Shown here: one piece after another, positions 2,199 to 21,303 of the stretch
Layout: each line of letters begins with the position of its first letter
Numbering within the stretch: position 1 is the stretch's first letter
DNA from: a virus
Length of the DNA stretch: 21,471 bases
IMG/VR virus record: IMGVR_UViG_3300000115_000167
Coordinates: 1-21,471 of that record
Strand: one strand, 5' to 3'
Translations under genes and position numbers: made by a program
Notes under the pieces: generated by a model
Database searches by the model: none
The model's input: the letters and a program-made list of their open reading frames with translations, nothing else
Told to the model about the DNA's origin: nothing

Positions 2199-2394
2199 AA
2201 CCTCATATCGGAAAGTTACTTCCAAAACCTAATACTCTTTGTCTCCAAAGTCTACCAGTGTCACTACAACTATGAGTCATGTTAGACCCATACGCTAGGC
2301 CCGATTCCATGCACTACAATCCGAACTCCGTCGAGTTGGACTTTTCTATTGGTACGACTTTTCTGTTGCTAAGCAAGTCGCCAGCTCCCTGTGA

Positions 2395-2439
2395 TTACGC
2401 AGCTAGTGCGAATCCAGAAGGTGCAAAGTTATCGTTTGC
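2395..2439 (-). other. tmRNA proteolysis-tag reading frame
   Basis: Starting at the resume codon GCA, the frame reads ANDNFAPSGFALAA followed by TAA. It begins with AND, as many bacterial tags do, and ends in ALAA, the signal bound by ClpX/ClpA and SspB-type adaptors. The segment just upstream (AAAACTACTAA) matches the A-rich, UAG-like context before the resume codon in other tmRNAs. The 14-residue tag is longer than the 10-residue E. coli tag. Confidence 0.92.
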
Positions 2440-2521
2440 ATTTAGTAGTTTTGACCAATTACGCAGTCACCCGATGATTCTACTCGCCTCTATCCTTGTC
2501 AGTCGATCCTAGTTCGCCCCC

Positions 2522-2590
2522 ATCAAAAACACTAGACTACTGTATAGTCCTCTGCAAAGGAAAGCAATTGCAGCTGCTCTCTAGTGTTCA
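2522..2590 (-). other. Intervening segment of the permuted tmRNA precursor
   Basis: The 69-nt segment joins the CCA end of the acceptor piece to the 5' end of the coding piece and is expected to be cut out. It has its own fold: outer arms AACACTAGA (2588-2580) and TCTAGTGTT (2536-2528), an inner CTGCAA/TTGCAG stem and a GACTA/TAGTC stem. Stacked on the acceptor stem, these would give a long hairpin suited to RNase processing. Which host nucleases cut it cannot be read from the sequence. Confidence 0.75.
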
Positions 2591-2658
2591 TGGTGGAGGC
2601 GTTGGGTACTGCCCCCAAGTCCTGTCCAATTGTCGAATTGTATCAACAAACCATGTAT

Positions 2659-2704: not shown

Positions 2705-3112
2705 TTATGGTAAATATTTTTTCTCAGGAGGATTTTCCCATGGCTGTCTACCCGAATAAGGAACAAAAGTATTTCCTGGCGCTAACAAGCACATCATTCC
2801 ATCTTTAAACATTACAGTAATTGATACAGTTTGTGTATCTAAATTTGCCCAAACATAAACAGAGCCTGAAAAATTTTGACCTGTACTAGTTTCTCTAATG
2901 TAACTATTAGCAGTCCACAATAATGATTCTTTGTTTTTAACCATTATATCAAACACAGTTTGAAAATTATCACACGGAATCGTCATGTTTAGGGTTTTTG
3001 GATTTGAAGTTACTGGATTATTTTGTGCATATGCAGAACTACACAGGAGCGCCGACAACATCAACGATCCCAAGATTGTCAACTGGCTCTTCCAACTTTT
3101 TAAATTTTTCAT
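2705..3112 (-). CDS. Secreted/periplasmic conserved protein, unknown function
   Basis: A 135-residue protein with a clear Sec signal peptide: basic start MKNLKSWKSQ, hydrophobic core LTILGSLMLSALLC, and a likely cleavage after SSAYA before QNNPV around residue 29. The mature part has two Cys (in PCDNFQTVFD and GMMCLLAPG), which could form a disulfide in the periplasm, and ends in a Pro-rich segment (RQPWENPPEKKYLP). Similar small exported proteins occur in marine T4-like phages, but I do not know their function. The start codon lies inside the 3' end of the exonuclease gene (overlap 74 nt). It is the last gene before the tmRNA promoter, and it follows the M15 endolysin and exonuclease genes. 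A role at the cell envelope is only a guess. Confidence 0.7.
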   Translation of the reverse strand: MKNLKSWKSQLTILGSLMLSALLCSSAYAQNNPVTSNPKTLNMTIPCDNFQTVFDIMVKNKESLLWTANSYIRETSTGQNFSGSVYVWANLDTQTVSITVMFKDGMMCLLAPGNTFVPYSGRQPWENPPEKKYLP

Positions 3113-6168: not shown

Positions 6169-6315
6169 CTATTTCTTTTCTGTTAATATTTTAATCTTTT
6201 CTGTTAACCATATAATAACACATTTTTCTTCTTCTGTCAAGTCTTTATTTCCAAGAGCATACAATGTTCTTTGAAAAACTGCATACTCCTGCCATTCTGT
6301 TCCAGTTAAACTCAT
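6169..6315 (-). CDS. 48-aa conserved-looking miniprotein, unknown function
   Basis: A short frame from ATG at 6315 to TAG, starting MSLTGTEWQEYAVFQRTLYA and ending in an amphipathic, Lys/Glu-rich helix (TEEEKCVIIWLTEKIKILTEKK is the last 22 residues, shown here only as a description of composition: acidic first, then hydrophobic and basic). Its ATG overlaps the stop of the SleB-like gene as ATGA, the usual sign of coupled translation in this genome, and it fills an otherwise empty 146-nt gap. A promoter for the next gene lies inside it. No family is recognised. Confidence 0.6.
   Translation of the reverse strand: MSLTGTEWQEYAVFQRTLYALGNKDLTEEEKCVIIWLTEKIKILTEKK
6212..6240 (-). promoter_or_regulatory. 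Internal sigma70-like promoter for the 182-aa gene
   Basis: TTGACA (6240-6235), a 17-bp spacer ending ATGTGT, and TATTAT (6217-6212) form a strong match with an extended -10 (TGT). The predicted start is near 6205, 40 nt before the ATG at 6165. The promoter lies wholly inside the 48-aa coding frame. Confidence 0.72.
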
Positions 6316-6824
6316 TTTTTATCCTTCATTCGGTAAAAGATGTGAGAACCAATTTGAGCAATCCTATCAAGTTGTTTTGACCATCTAGGCTTTACATAGG
6401 TGGCATGGTAATGTGTTGCACCTTCTGTTATTCCAATATATGATCTATGAACATACATATCTCTAGCAAATTTACGTGACCGTTCCCAAGCAGTAGAATC
6501 TGTAGGAGTGTCTGCTCTTCCATCACAATACCAACTAAATTGACATTTATGTCTTTTTGGAAAACCATTTGAATCTGTTTTAGCTTGATACACTACTGAA
6601 CATATATCATTGGGATATTGTGTATGGTTCGCCCTGTTAAGGACTACATCTGTGACTGCCATTGCATCTGCTAATGAAACTGCTTTTGTTTCAAAATAAA
6701 TATTAAGAGCAAGACATTCTATTTCATTTTCTTCTATATTTTTTTTGATAACTTCTTGACCAGCATATACTACTGAAGTAAATACTAGACTGTTTACCAT
6801 TACTGCTGTAATAAGTTTTTTCAT
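6312..6824 (-). CDS. Exported SleB-type cell wall hydrolase
   Basis: A 170-residue protein with a Sec signal peptide (MKKLITAVMVNSLVFTSVVYA, likely cut after VYA near residue 21) and a Hydrolase_2/SleB-like domain. The domain shows ECLALNIYFETK (the Glu near residue 45 is the expected catalytic acid), VVLNRANHTQYPNDICSVVY, CQFSWYCDG, and the closing GATHYHATYVKPRW and IGSHIFYR. SleB-type enzymes are lytic transglycosylase-like amidase-fold proteins that cut peptidoglycan. Because it carries its own signal peptide it could reach the periplasm without a holin, unlike the M15 endolysin at 3787-4254. GAGG lies 6 nt before the ATG, and its stop overlaps the 48-aa frame (ATGA). Confidence 0.9.
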   Translation of the reverse strand: MKKLITAVMVNSLVFTSVVYAGQEVIKKNIEENEIECLALNIYFETKAVSLADAMAVTDVVLNRANHTQYPNDICSVVYQAKTDSNGFPKRHKCQFSWYCDGRADTPTDSTAWERSRKFARDMYVHRSYIGITEGATHYHATYVKPRWSKQLDRIAQIGSHIFYRMKDKK

Positions 6825-16379: not shown

Positions 16380-18425
16380 TTAATTCCTTTCATATTGTTC
16401 TCTTACCATCTTATTGTGTGTTTCATCACTAGCACCAGTAAAAAACCTTTGTGATGGATTATCAAATACACGTTGATCATTGTATATGTCTTTAGTTTCA
16501 TAGTAGTTACCATCAGGCATTTGTGATTGTTGATAGTCTCTTATCTTTGGATTGTATCCCAACAACGCAGCCTTTGCCTCTTCAGAAGTATCACCACCCA
16601 ATGCCTTTTCAACCAATTCATCTTCTAGATTTTGTTGCATACCCAACTGTTCCTCAGAAACTTCATTCAACCCACCATTATCAGATTCTTCTATAACATC
16701 TTTTGTAACATTATCAATTAATGTGTTCAACTCTATATTTAGTCTTGCAACAATATCAACTGGTAATGAACTCTCTACCGATACTTGACTAAATCCAAAA
16801 TCTACAGAACTCCCATATTCAGCTGAATTAGTTATATCTACAGCACTCAAACCACTACTCGCAATTAGTGATACATCACTACTGCCAGATAATAATTCAA
16901 CACCAGCATCAGTTTGTTGCAATGAAGTTTGATTATTACTAAAATATGATCCAGTACTAGATTGTGTTCCAGAACTACCACCAGAACTATCAGCAAAACC
17001 GCCAGACGATAAAGTGTTACTGTCCATACTTGTACCACTGGCAGATATACCATCGGCTGATAAACTTTGAGATGAACTATCTGTTGCAACCTGTTGTGCA
17101 TCAGTTGCAGTTTCAGATGCAGCAGTTAATGCTTTATTTTTCAATTTTTTATTAGAAGGTTTTTCAGTAACATTTGGTATACTATCTTGGATTAATTCTT
17201 CTACCTCTATCACATCGTCTAATATGGGGTCTATGGACGGTTCTAGTTCTTCGATTGTCATAGGTTCAGGCTCTGGTAATACTTGTATAGAATCTTCAAG
17301 TACATCAATCATTGGTTCTTGTACATCAATACCAGTAGTTGCTTCTAAATCAATACCAGTAGTTGCTTCCAAATCAATGCCTAAACTTAAATCTTCTAAA
17401 ACATTTGTTACATCTGGTATTCCAGTATCATTAATAGGAGGCAACCCAATGTCATCATCAAAAATATCACTACCATCATTTGCTGGTTGTCCATCATCCA
17501 CACCAGTTAGTATTTGATCGTCAACACCTAAGTTATCACTAATGATAGGTATTTCATCAATAATCACATTACCATCATCGGCAATATTAATATCAAGTCC
17601 ACCACCAACTGTTGGGTCTGGATTTACAGAACTACCATCATCACCAGTAATCATACTATTATCTTGACCATCAAATTCATTTGTTTCTGAAATATAATTA
17701 TAACATGCTGGACTATATTGGGAATTTGCTTCACATTCCTCTTCAAATGTCAATGCAGTTGTCTGGCCAGGATAGGTAAAGTTAGGATCAAAGTCTTGTT
17801 CATGTCCAGCAAGTGTTTTATAAACCATATGAAATTTTAAATCACCAATACCATCACCAGCAGTATCGCCAGTCATAGTCGCTACAAATGTATAAGTATC
17901 CGTAATATTTATTAGAAATGGTGGTATATCTTCAGCTGAATAGTCAGTTCCATCAATTGTACCAGTAAAACTTTGTGTTCTAGCATAAACTAAAGTATCA
18001 CCGTCTTTTATTTCCATTTTAAAGGCTAGTGTTGAGTTTCCACTTTTATATACTTTGTACTCATATTTCCACCCCTTAAATTGCACACCAACTCCAGCAG
18101 CCTGAAACGCAGCATTAATCAGAATAGTCGCCTTTGCAAATTGTTGAGCTGTACTATCGTTATTAATAAATTTGTAGGAGTTTGTACTTGTGTCGTAGTA
18201 TACATCATTTTCACCAGTAAGAGTTACCGCATCAGCACCATCCAACATTTGCATAGAAACAGTGTTACATAGAATAGTGTCAGAGTATGTTGTTGTACTA
18301 TCAGTCCTTAGTAAAGTGCCGTCATAGTATTCAATACCACAATCATGTGTTTCAGTAGTAGCGAATACCTCAGAGGAGTAGAAGCAACAAACTAAGACCA
18401 CCCAATGTTTTGAGTATGGTATCAT
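16380..18425 (-). CDS. Large secreted low-complexity protein, unknown function
   Basis: A 681-residue protein with a signal peptide (HWVVLVCCFYSSEVFA, cut near residue 22 before TTETHDCG). Residues 23-225 form a beta-rich domain with four or more Cys (DCGIEYYDGT, ILCNTV, EECEANSQYSPACYNY). This is followed by a long acidic, Asp/Gly/Pro-rich linker with LEATTGID repeats, a Ser/Gly-rich segment (GGFADSSGGSSGTQSSTGSY), and a C-terminal part ending QRFFTGASDETHNKMVREQY. The build suggests an exported or surface-located structural protein, perhaps fibre-like. Its start overlaps the Asn/Thr-rich gene by 56 nt, so the two are co-expressed from a late promoter. No family is recognised. Confidence 0.72.
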   Translation of the reverse strand: MIPYSKHWVVLVCCFYSSEVFATTETHDCGIEYYDGTLLRTDSTTTYSDTILCNTVSMQMLDGADAVTLTGENDVYYDTSTNSYKFINNDSTAQQFAKATILINAAFQAAGVGVQFKGWKYEYKVYKSGNSTLAFKMEIKDGDTLVYARTQSFTGTIDGTDYSAEDIPPFLINITDTYTFVATMTGDTAGDGIGDLKFHMVYKTLAGHEQDFDPNFTYPGQTTALTFEEECEANSQYSPACYNYISETNEFDGQDNSMITGDDGSSVNPDPTVGGGLDINIADDGNVIIDEIPIISDNLGVDDQILTGVDDGQPANDGSDIFDDDIGLPPINDTGIPDVTNVLEDLSLGIDLEATTGIDLEATTGIDVQEPMIDVLEDSIQVLPEPEPMTIEELEPSIDPILDDVIEVEELIQDSIPNVTEKPSNKKLKNKALTAASETATDAQQVATDSSSQSLSADGISASGTSMDSNTLSSGGFADSSGGSSGTQSSTGSYFSNNQTSLQQTDAGVELLSGSSDVSLIASSGLSAVDITNSAEYGSSVDFGFSQVSVESSLPVDIVARLNIELNTLIDNVTKDVIEESDNGGLNEVSEEQLGMQQNLEDELVEKALGGDTSEEAKAALLGYNPKIRDYQQSQMPDGNYYETKDIYNDQRVFDNPSQRFFTGASDETHNKMVREQYERN
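17325..17372 (-). repeat. Two 24-bp tandem repeats in the 681-aa gene
   Basis: The 24-bp units at 17325-17348 and 17349-17372 differ at one base and encode LEATTGID twice, with a partial third copy of the first bases after 17372. The repeats are in frame, so copy-number change would lengthen or shorten the acidic linker without breaking the protein. Confidence 0.85.
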
Positions 18426-19425
18426 TTTTTATCTCTTCTTGTTGTTCTATTGCAGCATTTTTAGGATGTACTGGTTTTGCTTTTGGTTTAGGGTCTACTT
18501 GTTTCCATTTTTTCTGAGCCGCTTCTCCAATCTCACCATCAAATGGACAAGGTGTTCCTGCCATATCCATGGCTAAAAATATTTCTACATCTTGACATAA
18601 GAGTGCGATTGCTGCAACTTTCATACCCATATTATACAAAGTCTTAGACTTCTTTAATCTTTCACAATTCAAATCTCTGATATGAGAACCGCCTGCAATA
18701 CCCACAATTTGTGTTTGTACTGAACCAGATACAGCTGTAGTACAAGTATCAAGACCACCGGCATTGACTGTCGGTGCAATCGCACTAGGTGGCGGAGCCG
18801 TAACAGTTTGGTTTTGATTTACAGTACTGTTATTAGTATTTGTATTAGTGTTATTACTTGTACTATCCACATTACTATTATTTGTATTAGTATTGGTGTT
18901 ATTATTTGTATTGGTGTTCGTATTTGTGTTAGTATTAGTTGATGTACTATTAACAGTCTGATTGACAGTAGAATTGCTTGTACTATTAACAGTCTGATCT
19001 ACAGTTGATGTACTAGTATTTGTGTTTGTATTATTATTTGTGTTTGTATTATTGGCTGTAGAGTTGATTGTAGTATTATTCGTATTATTATTTGTATTTG
19101 TGTTTGTATTATTACTTGTATTCGTGTTAGTATTAGTGTTATTATTAGTATTCGTGCTTGTACTCGTATTTGTGTTTGTATTAGTATTCGTATTGGTGTT
19201 AGTATTTGTGTTGGTTTGATTACCAGTTATACTTGTGGTGTTATTATTTGTGTTGGTATTGTTAGTTGTAACACTAGAAGTTGTATTAGTGGTGCTATCA
19301 GTTAATGCACAGTCAACACCTGTAAGAGCACAATCTACAGCATTTACTTGATCTTGAGCAATAGCTAAAGCAGATGGTAACATCAGCATACAGAATAATA
19401 TTATTCGTAAAATGATAACTTGCAC
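18370..19425 (-). CDS. Secreted Asn/Thr-repeat protein with conserved C-terminal domain
   Basis: A 351-residue protein from a GTG start (AGGAG 7 nt upstream). A signal peptide (VIILRIILFCMLMLPSALAIA) is followed by DCALTGVDCALT. Residues about 46-215 are almost only Asn, Thr and Ser in (NT)n and NSTVNQTVNSTS-type repeats, which would form an extended or beta-solenoid stalk. The C-terminal domain (SGSVQTQIVGIAGGSHIRDL, then MGMKVAAIALLCQDVEIFLA and MDMAGTPCPFDGEIGE) resembles a domain found in marine T4-like phage proteins of unknown role, and a last hydrophobic stretch LLLLLL ends it. It is the first gene after the late promoter at 19448-19455. A surface or virion-associated role is plausible but unproven. 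Confidence 0.75.
   Translation of the reverse strand: MQVIILRIILFCMLMLPSALAIAQDQVNAVDCALTGVDCALTDSTTNTTSSVTTNNTNTNNNTTSITGNQTNTNTNTNTNTNTNTNTSTSTNTNNNTNTNTNTSNNTNTNTNNNTNNTTINSTANNTNTNNNTNTNTSTSTVDQTVNSTSNSTVNQTVNSTSTNTNTNTNTNTNNNTNTNTNNSNVDSTSNNTNTNTNNSTVNQNQTVTAPPPSAIAPTVNAGGLDTCTTAVSGSVQTQIVGIAGGSHIRDLNCERLKKSKTLYNMGMKVAAIALLCQDVEIFLAMDMAGTPCPFDGEIGEAAQKKWKQVDPKPKAKPVHPKNAAIEQQEEIKNDTILKTLGGLSLLLLLL
18815..19290 (-). repeat. Low-complexity AAT/ACN tract encoding Asn/Thr repeats
   Basis: About 475 bp of near-repetitive sequence built from AAT/AAC and ACA/ACT/ACG codons, with interspersed AGT codons. The third codon positions vary, so the peptide repeat is more regular than the DNA. Two longer units encoding STVNQTVNSTS-like motifs occur near 18940-19010. 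Such tracts expand and contract easily by slippage or recombination. Confidence 0.85.
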
Positions 19426-20222: not shown

Positions 20223-20513
20223 TCAATAATTAAAAGTATTACTTTCTAAACTTTTTATTCTTTTTTCCAATTCATCAATCTTTTTTGTAACATGAGGATA
20301 TTTTTTTCTCCACGCATCATCTGGTTGTTCAAACCAAGTCAACCCCCAACGATCTATTAGATAATCTAAAATACGATCAAACCAACTATATCCCCATAGA
20401 CCTATTCGTGTTCCTTGAAAATATGCTAGGAATGCAGCACCAAAAATACTACCTATGATAGCTGTATATATCCAAAGACGATCTGTCGCCATTCTTTCAA
20501 TCATATCCCACAT
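20223..20513 (-). CDS. Small membrane protein with C-terminal helix, unknown function
   Basis: A 96-residue protein with one TM segment (LWIYTAIIGSIFGAAFLAYF, residues 13-32), an aromatic amphipathic segment (GLWGYSWFDRILDYLIDRWG, then LTWFEQPDDAWRKKYP), and a C-terminal coiled coil (VTKKIDELEKRIKSLES). This combination and the motif 'Q-P-x-D-A-W-R-K-K-Y-P' look like a conserved protein of marine T4-like phages. Its ATG overlaps the lipase stop by 1 nt (TAATG), so it is made with the lipase. That pairing could hint at membrane targeting of the lipase or of a lysis process, but there is no direct evidence. Confidence 0.7.
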   Translation of the reverse strand: MWDMIERMATDRLWIYTAIIGSIFGAAFLAYFQGTRIGLWGYSWFDRILDYLIDRWGLTWFEQPDDAWRKKYPHVTKKIDELEKRIKSLESNTFNY

Positions 20514-21303
20514 TATTTAATTAAAATCTTTCCTGTGTAAGCATACAAGTCTTTTAGTTTATCAGAATAAAGTGTTATGTTGTGATCATAAATTCCATCA
20601 AAGAGTTGAAACTTTTTTAATGCTTTCCATCTTCCTCGCATGGAGTCTTTTAATTTTTGCCATAGAGTTAATTTACGAATATTACCATAATAATTTATAT
20701 AACACAATTTACCATGATGCCTATAACCCATCAACCACAAAGGTATTACTGGAACTACATCGTTATTGTTTCTAAATCTATGATGTTCAACATCACAACC
20801 ATCACGCCATTCTCTACCACCCACTCTTGGTGATCCATATGTGTATAGTATTGGATTTCTTTCTTCTAAACGACTAGCACACAATGTTGCCATCGCACCA
20901 CCTAAACTATGACCAGTGATCCAAATTTGTTGCTTGGTTCTTCTGTTTAGAATACCAGAAATGTCGTTCCACAATTTTCGTAGTTCTATCTTAAATCCCA
21001 TATGCACTTTACCTTCAGTCTTAGACTTTCTTTTGAAAGCTAGAAGGTCTGCCTTTACATCTGAGAATTGAGTTGGTTCTGTTCCTCTAAAAGCTATCAC
21101 GATATGTTCTGAATTATGAAATATGTGACACTGGGCCCCATCGTTGTCAATAAACTTATAGTTTTTAAATCCTAGTCTAAGTATTTCTCGTTTTACTCTA
21201 GTTCCATCATGGTAAGCTAGTGCAGAAACTTCAGAAAAGAAATATGATTTCCATTCGTGATTATCAAATTCTAATTTTCACAGAGTTCAAAATATTTTTT
21301 CAT
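20513..21303 (-). pseudogene. Class 3 lipase-like gene with one internal frameshift
   Basis: The coding region starts with an ATG at 21303 that overlaps the upstream stop as ATGA, reads MKKYFELCEN and then meets TAG at 21273-21271. In the -1 frame the product continues LEFDNHEWKSYFFSEVSALA (plausible lipase N-terminus), then IAFRGTEPTQFSDVKADLLA, WITGHSLGGAMATLCASRLE (nucleophile Ser in GHSLGG), NNNDVVPVIPLW (catalytic Asp) and DHNITLYSD (probable catalytic His). The length of 791 bp is one base short of 264 codons, so a missing T in the AAAATTAG stretch would restore a 263-residue lipase. In the present sequence, a GTG at 21100 could start only a truncated enzyme. The event is either a real mutation or a sequencing/assembly error. 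Confidence 0.8.

Follow-up and report, generated by a model that had tools for sequence, protein, structure and literature searches.

The minus strand of the 21,471-nucleotide stretch of virus DNA analyzed here (the window), which derives from a 25,865-base virus fragment, carries a circularly permuted, two-piece tmRNA gene of the alphaproteobacterial type. Between positions 2690 and 1795, this strand holds, in order, a promoter, the permuted tmRNA gene, a manA-like RNA, a two-hairpin RNA, and the gene for gp33 (Table 1). Judging from the sequence, we estimate a probability of about 0.8 that a pelagimyophage-like, T4-type phage carries here a working ssrA of the permuted alphaproteobacterial form, acting through the steps proposed below. 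The tmRNA by itself is of a known kind; the arrangement that surrounds it is the new part.

Identity and structure of the tmRNA gene

A cmscan search of the whole window against Rfam yielded two tmRNA matches on the minus strand, alpha_tmRNA (RF01849) at 2694-2351 with 113.5 bits (E = 1.2e-30) and tmRNA_permuted (RF04321) at 2654-2395 with 111.4 bits (E = 2.2e-21). Both scores exceed the respective gathering cut-offs of 50 and 47 bits. ARAGORN, a separate method, also reported a permuted tmRNA, with the tag ANDNFAPSGFALAA. The CCA-bearing acceptor half comes first on the minus strand, followed by the intervening sequence and then the coding half; the last base of the encoded CCA is 2591, and the coding half starts at 2521. 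The 7-bp acceptor stem pairs GGGGGCG (2521-2515) with CGCCUCC and contains the G3-U70 alanine identity pair. The intervening sequence (2590-2522) is predicted to form a branched stem, closed by pairing of AACACUAG with CUAGUGUU, with a folding energy of -19.5 kcal/mol and a z score of -1.7, which alone is not significant. The gene probably extends from about 2654 to about 2350, its 5' end being placed from the promoter and the start of the model match.

These results bear out most of a first-pass annotation of the window, which had described an acceptor half with encoded CCA ahead of the coding half, a 7-bp acceptor stem with G3-U70, and a tag frame reading ANDNFAPSGFALAA-stop (found at 2439-2395), and had called the gene a phage-encoded permuted tmRNA of the alpha type in a T4-like virus. 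The alpha_tmRNA model that it suggested running gives the score above, and the expected inter-piece helix is present and shows compensatory changes across 66 phage homologues. Its interval of 2230-2654 correctly covered the tmRNA (about 2654-2350) and was about 120 bases too long at the 3' boundary: the coding half closes with the hairpin at 2381-2354, and positions 2338-2230 belong to the separate manA-like RNA, outside the tmRNA.

Table 1. Features of the tmRNA-gp33 region and the thyX gene further downstream, with their positions in the window.
Feature	Positions	Strand	Basis
Composite promoter: TTGACA (2690-2685), 18-nt spacer, TATAAATA (2666-2659)	2659-2690	minus	Motif positions
tmRNA acceptor piece (5' strand of inter-piece helix, T arm, CGCCUCC-ACCA)	2591-2654	minus	cmscan, RF04321 and RF01849
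Intervening sequence, predicted to be excised in the two-piece tmRNA	2522-2590	minus	Exact positions from sequence
tmRNA coding piece, from the GGGGGCG acceptor strand to the terminal hairpin	2350-2521	minus	cmscan, sequence positions
Tag reading frame, ANDNFAPSGFALAA and stop TAA	2395-2439	minus	ARAGORN, tag conservation
Terminal hairpin of the coding piece, GCGACUU/AAGUCGU	2354-2381	minus	Homologue stems, predicted fold
Divergent manA RNA (RF01745), orphan riboswitch candidate	2128-2338	minus	cmscan, 46.1 bits, E = 1.5e-10
Two-hairpin RNA, loops CUUAAUA and YGGUUA	2075-2124	minus	Model R1, 66.5 bits (training set included the L004 copy, identical to the window copy); predicted fold
gp33-type late-transcription coactivator, first gene downstream of the tmRNA	1795-2040	minus	PHROG 254, E = 3.9e-21
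ThyX thymidylate synthase, beyond gp33	858-1547	minus	PHROG 85, E = 4.3e-65; synteny with Melnitz and Mosig

Covariation and tag conservation among phage homologues

Homologues were collected from viral contigs by a gp33 protein search, two scans with riboswitch patterns, and a scan with a two-hairpin pattern; the counts given here refer to loci chosen by pattern and should not be read as prevalence. A scan with a short manA-derived pattern was too unspecific and was left out of the counts. G3-U70 and ACCA are invariant in all 66 distinct phage homologues, while acceptor pairs 5 and 6 alternate between G-C and C-G and between C-G and U-A. The T stem is paired in 66 of 66, with compensatory changes, and the terminal hairpin appears with 24 different complementary stem pairs. 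Columns 27-34/89-95, which form the inter-piece helix, have up to six pair types with 0-1 bad cell of 66. Since these homologues share ancestry, such pair counts represent non-independent events. The RNAalifold consensus energy of the alignment was -31.5, compared with -1.0 when its columns were shuffled.

Most phage tags are 14 codons long, begin with ANDNFA, and end with ALAA. Across 26 distinct 14-residue tags, positions 1-6 and 11-14 are conserved and positions 7-9 are variable. Codons change silently, and positions 13 and 14 draw on all four alanine codons. The conserved ends, the varied middle, and the silent use of alanine codons indicate that the tag peptide itself is under selection, and conservation of ANDNFA at the start and ALAA at the end speaks for selection on its degradation signal as well.

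A composite promoter upstream of the tmRNA gene

The promoter appears to combine a host sigma-70 early type with an overlapping T4 late type. The composite motif occurs once in the window, against 0.013 copies expected from shuffled sequences. TTGAC and TATAAATA are both present in 66 of 80 distinct regions upstream of phage tmRNAs, where their positions are nearly always fixed at sigma-70 spacing and the sequence of the spacer varies. The genome of Methylophilales phage Melnitz contains TATAAATA 22 times on one strand and three times on the other, frequently lying shortly before late genes, including those for gp23 and the tail sheath, and only two copies of the full composite promoter. For RB49 and cyanophages, overlap of early and late promoters has been proposed to serve middle-mode expression (PMC2984593), and expression of the Melnitz tmRNA has been proposed to be early only (PMC9004378). 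From its motifs, we infer that the tmRNA in the window would be expressed both early and late; early expression is plausible from the consensus -35 and the -10 at sigma-70 spacing.

Proposed action of the phage tmRNA

We propose that a single precursor would be transcribed early by host sigma-70 RNA polymerase and that the same promoter would be read late, through TATAAATA, by phage machinery of the gp55/gp33/gp45 type. Host tRNA-processing enzymes would excise the intervening sequence, and two helices, the acceptor stem and the one between the pieces, would keep the acceptor and coding pieces together. The alanyl-tRNA synthetase of the host would charge the molecule through G3-U70, and host SmpB would take it to ribosomes that have stalled on broken mRNAs, expected to be plentiful during infection. 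SmpB was not found in 12 phage records, three isolate genomes among them; the control for this search was positive in 10 of 14 cellular genomes. The tag (A)ANDNFAPSGFALAA would then be added, the ribosome released, and the product directed by its ALAA end to ClpXP-type proteolysis, a targeting suggested by the resemblance of the tag to known SsrA tags. Readthrough of the operon would add the manA-like RNA and a two-hairpin leader before the gp33 gene, probably regulating gp33.

A variant compatible with this proposal is a working tmRNA that serves chiefly to free ribosomes while host mRNA is being destroyed, with proteolysis of tagged products incidental. T4-type phages destroy host mRNA, and the early expression that the -35 and -10 elements make plausible would suit such a role. 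We regard this variant as a serious possibility, though not the favored one: the conserved ANDNFA start and ALAA end point instead to a selected degradation signal. Much less probable is a decoy, whose tRNA-like domain would titrate SmpB or alanyl-tRNA synthetase and so inhibit host trans-translation. This role has a phage precedent in mycobacteriophage DS6A, for whose tag-less tmRNA it has been proposed (PMC4131195, PMC11915505), and would agree with the lack of SmpB in the 12 phage records. However, a decoy would need neither the tag frame, resume codon, and stop, all conserved with silent changes, nor the ALAA end, which is mostly fixed among the 26 distinct tags.

Phage identity and relationships of the gene

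The window encodes gp33, ThyX, PhoH, NrdA, and a gp61-type primase, with relatives in marine myophages, and on this basis we assign it to a T4-like, pelagimyophage-related phage. The primase is nearest to that of Pelagibacter phage Mosig (48.5%), followed by that of Melnitz (47.7%). In a tblastn search, the gp33 of the window matched the annotated gp33 of HTVC008M, Melnitz, and Mosig.

In a tmRNA tree, the phage genes formed one clade (support of 0.957) against 99 tmRNAs from non-phage contigs, mainly alphaproteobacterial. The sole entry of the non-phage set to fall inside this clade, L233, is itself a misbinned phage contig. When 385 alphaproteobacterial genomes were searched for closely related host tmRNAs, only short local matches came up. 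The single phage clade speaks against a recent capture and also against using the gene as a host marker, as the first-pass annotation had proposed. That annotation had further suggested a comparison with SAR11 tags; the phage tags are unlike ANDNSGVALAA (found once) and ANESYALAA (found twice), which come from the only three small, AT-rich, SAR11-like genomes that yielded tags in an uneven host sample. Its remark that only a few reports of phage tmRNAs exist is outdated, as the study that describes the Melnitz gene counted 133 unique tmRNA structures in phages, of which 53 are two-piece (PMC9004378). Its suggestions that the phage RNA could stand in for the host tmRNA and could tag proteins of the host or the phage are retained here as hypotheses.

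ARAGORN found no tmRNA upstream of gp33 in several related contigs, which suggests that the gene is dispensable or movable. A functionless passenger recently captured from a host, or host contamination of the viral contig, would accord with this absence, with permuted tmRNAs being typical of alphaproteobacteria, and with tmRNA genes being common integration sites, but is the least probable reading of all, given one phage clade apart from the 99 bacterial tmRNAs, an identical position ahead of gp33 in the genomes of isolates, covariation among phage homologues, and a mostly shared phage-type promoter.

The L233 tmRNA is permuted and lies on a T4-like phage contig (PBDU01000009.1; gp33, helicase loader, endolysin) from the MAG "Euryarchaeota archaeon SP339." This supports the view that one or more of the "archaeal" tmRNAs of the type discussed in PMC11915505 stem from misbinning, in this case of phage and not bacterial DNA.

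Three further minus-strand genes of the window were recorded. The first (2705-3112) encodes a small protein that looks secreted and matches nothing in Pfam or PHROG; several relatives have comparable short ORFs of signal-peptide-like character ahead of the tmRNA. The second (18370-19425) encodes a 351-residue secreted-looking protein with long Asn-Thr repeats and no Pfam match, and the third (20513-21100) a phage-encoded class 3 lipase (PF01764, 82.9 bits).

A manA-like RNA in an exchangeable slot

About 11 nt 3' of the probable end of the coding piece, the window matches manA RNA. The match is full length, but its 46.1 bits lie below the gathering threshold of 55.2 and thus fail the curated cut-off, and we therefore use the name manA-like. 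RNAs in the same slot of relatives score 55.9-67.5 bits, above the cut-off. When these are aligned, the manA core and the pseudoknot strands are conserved or covarying. The strands of the relatives read GCATTG/CAATGC, GCAATG/CATTGC, GTGTTG/CAACAC, and TTGTGG/CCACAA; those of the window, TGTAG/CTACA, occupy the aligned positions and were read by eye, a script having chosen another 5-bp match. The pseudoknot, flagged as uncertain when manA was described (PMC2864571), thus covaries among same-slot relatives. Compared with known manA RNAs (RF01745; PMC2864571), the RNA of the window shares the full-length match and the conserved core and differs in its score below the cut-off and in its location, between a tmRNA and gp33, a context absent from the literature searched.

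Other RNAs occupy the slot in other phages. In Melnitz it is filled by a glutamine riboswitch (52.8 bits), an arrangement repeated in several further contigs with a tmRNA, and two loci (L003 and L013) have neither manA nor a glutamine riboswitch. L005 and L006, whose flanks are nearly identical, present an empty and a filled site, respectively. In the window, cmscan gave no match to the glutamine riboswitch (RF01739) up to E = 5, and matches to engA (2057-2151; 17 bits against a cut-off of 46) and mir-582 were at chance level. The position of the switch on the 3' side of the tmRNA makes control of whatever comes after it the more plausible role. More speculative, and in our view rather doubtful, is the idea that the space between tmRNA and gp33 is an exchangeable sensor slot, holding a glutamine riboswitch, manA, or nothing and followed by the two-hairpin RNA, that would tune the onset of late transcription to host metabolism; if so, the ligand of manA might be linked to nitrogen or glutamine status.

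Two further observations concern loci with the glutamine riboswitch. On the reverse strand of L438 (about 6170-6425), the sequence of the tmRNA 3' terminal hairpin recurs beyond the riboswitch cassette, as if direct repeats stood on both flanks. A small conserved ORF (MTLYQxWCYxKAxEEW...) follows the riboswitch in L362, L388, L438, L338, and L002 and was absent from the manA-type loci read.

A two-hairpin RNA element

The two-hairpin RNA had no Rfam match in the cmscan of the window, and blastn with an 88-nt stretch containing it gave no phage match. Among 77 distinct copies from other loci, the loops are invariant and the stems covary. Changes on both sides occur in 11 of 11 pairs, and the covariation score is 0.635 versus 0.257 after shuffling. 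Pairing holds in 98% of cells for hairpin 1 and in 70% for hairpin 2, the lower value reflecting variable loop length. Model R1 finds one copy per record where the element is present, including L233, which was outside its training set. ARAGORN placed a same-strand tmRNA upstream of the element at 70 of 129 loci; 18 more had less than 600 nt of upstream sequence, and 41 had none. The covariance model detected a tmRNA in 9 of 39 records from these 41, with positions checked in part. The element often lies between the tmRNA and gp33, and the genes downstream of it vary. A 2OG-Fe(II) oxygenase gene (PF13759) is located between the element and gp33 in L006 (1562-2239) and L019 (2272-2973), and by similarity the same insertion is present in L005, L011, L017, and L018. 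Our best guess is that the two-hairpin RNA is a leader or processing element.

Comparison with known systems

A two-piece phage tmRNA just upstream of gp33 is already known from Melnitz and Mosig, where it is annotated as SsrA. Melnitz (EXVC044M, PMC9004378) resembles the window in its permuted, two-piece, alpha-type tmRNA, the same composite promoter, the position upstream of gp33 with thyX further on, and the same two-hairpin element. It differs in its tag, ANDNYVPVDYALAA, and in having a glutamine riboswitch and a small ORF after the tmRNA and no manA; only 32% of the query aligns to Melnitz, at 80% identity. Mosig (EXVC030M, MT647606) shares with the window a permuted tmRNA directly upstream of gp33, a PD-(D/E)XK nuclease gene upstream of the tmRNA, and the closest primase. 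In contrast, its tag is GEDNFALAA, and it lacks both the TATAAATA/TTGAC promoter at the expected place and the two-hairpin element. In HTVC008M, ARAGORN detects a tmRNA with the tag ANFNEYALAA. Alphaproteobacterial tmRNAs (RF01849, RF04321) agree with that of the window in the tRNA-domain features tested, the encoded CCA, and the order of the halves. Unlike it, the sampled bacterial genes encode tags that are mostly 9-14 residues long, none identical, and the phage genes form a separate clade.

Many marine T4-like phages thus appear to carry their own trans-translation RNA. The literature that we found on these phage tmRNAs consists of sequence-based inference only, and the conserved tag and promoter make the question of trans-translation testable in cultured Melnitz and Mosig. 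The two-hairpin element may represent a new RNA family, and the swap between glutamine riboswitch and manA before gp33 offers a concrete way toward the ligand of manA, an orphan riboswitch candidate.
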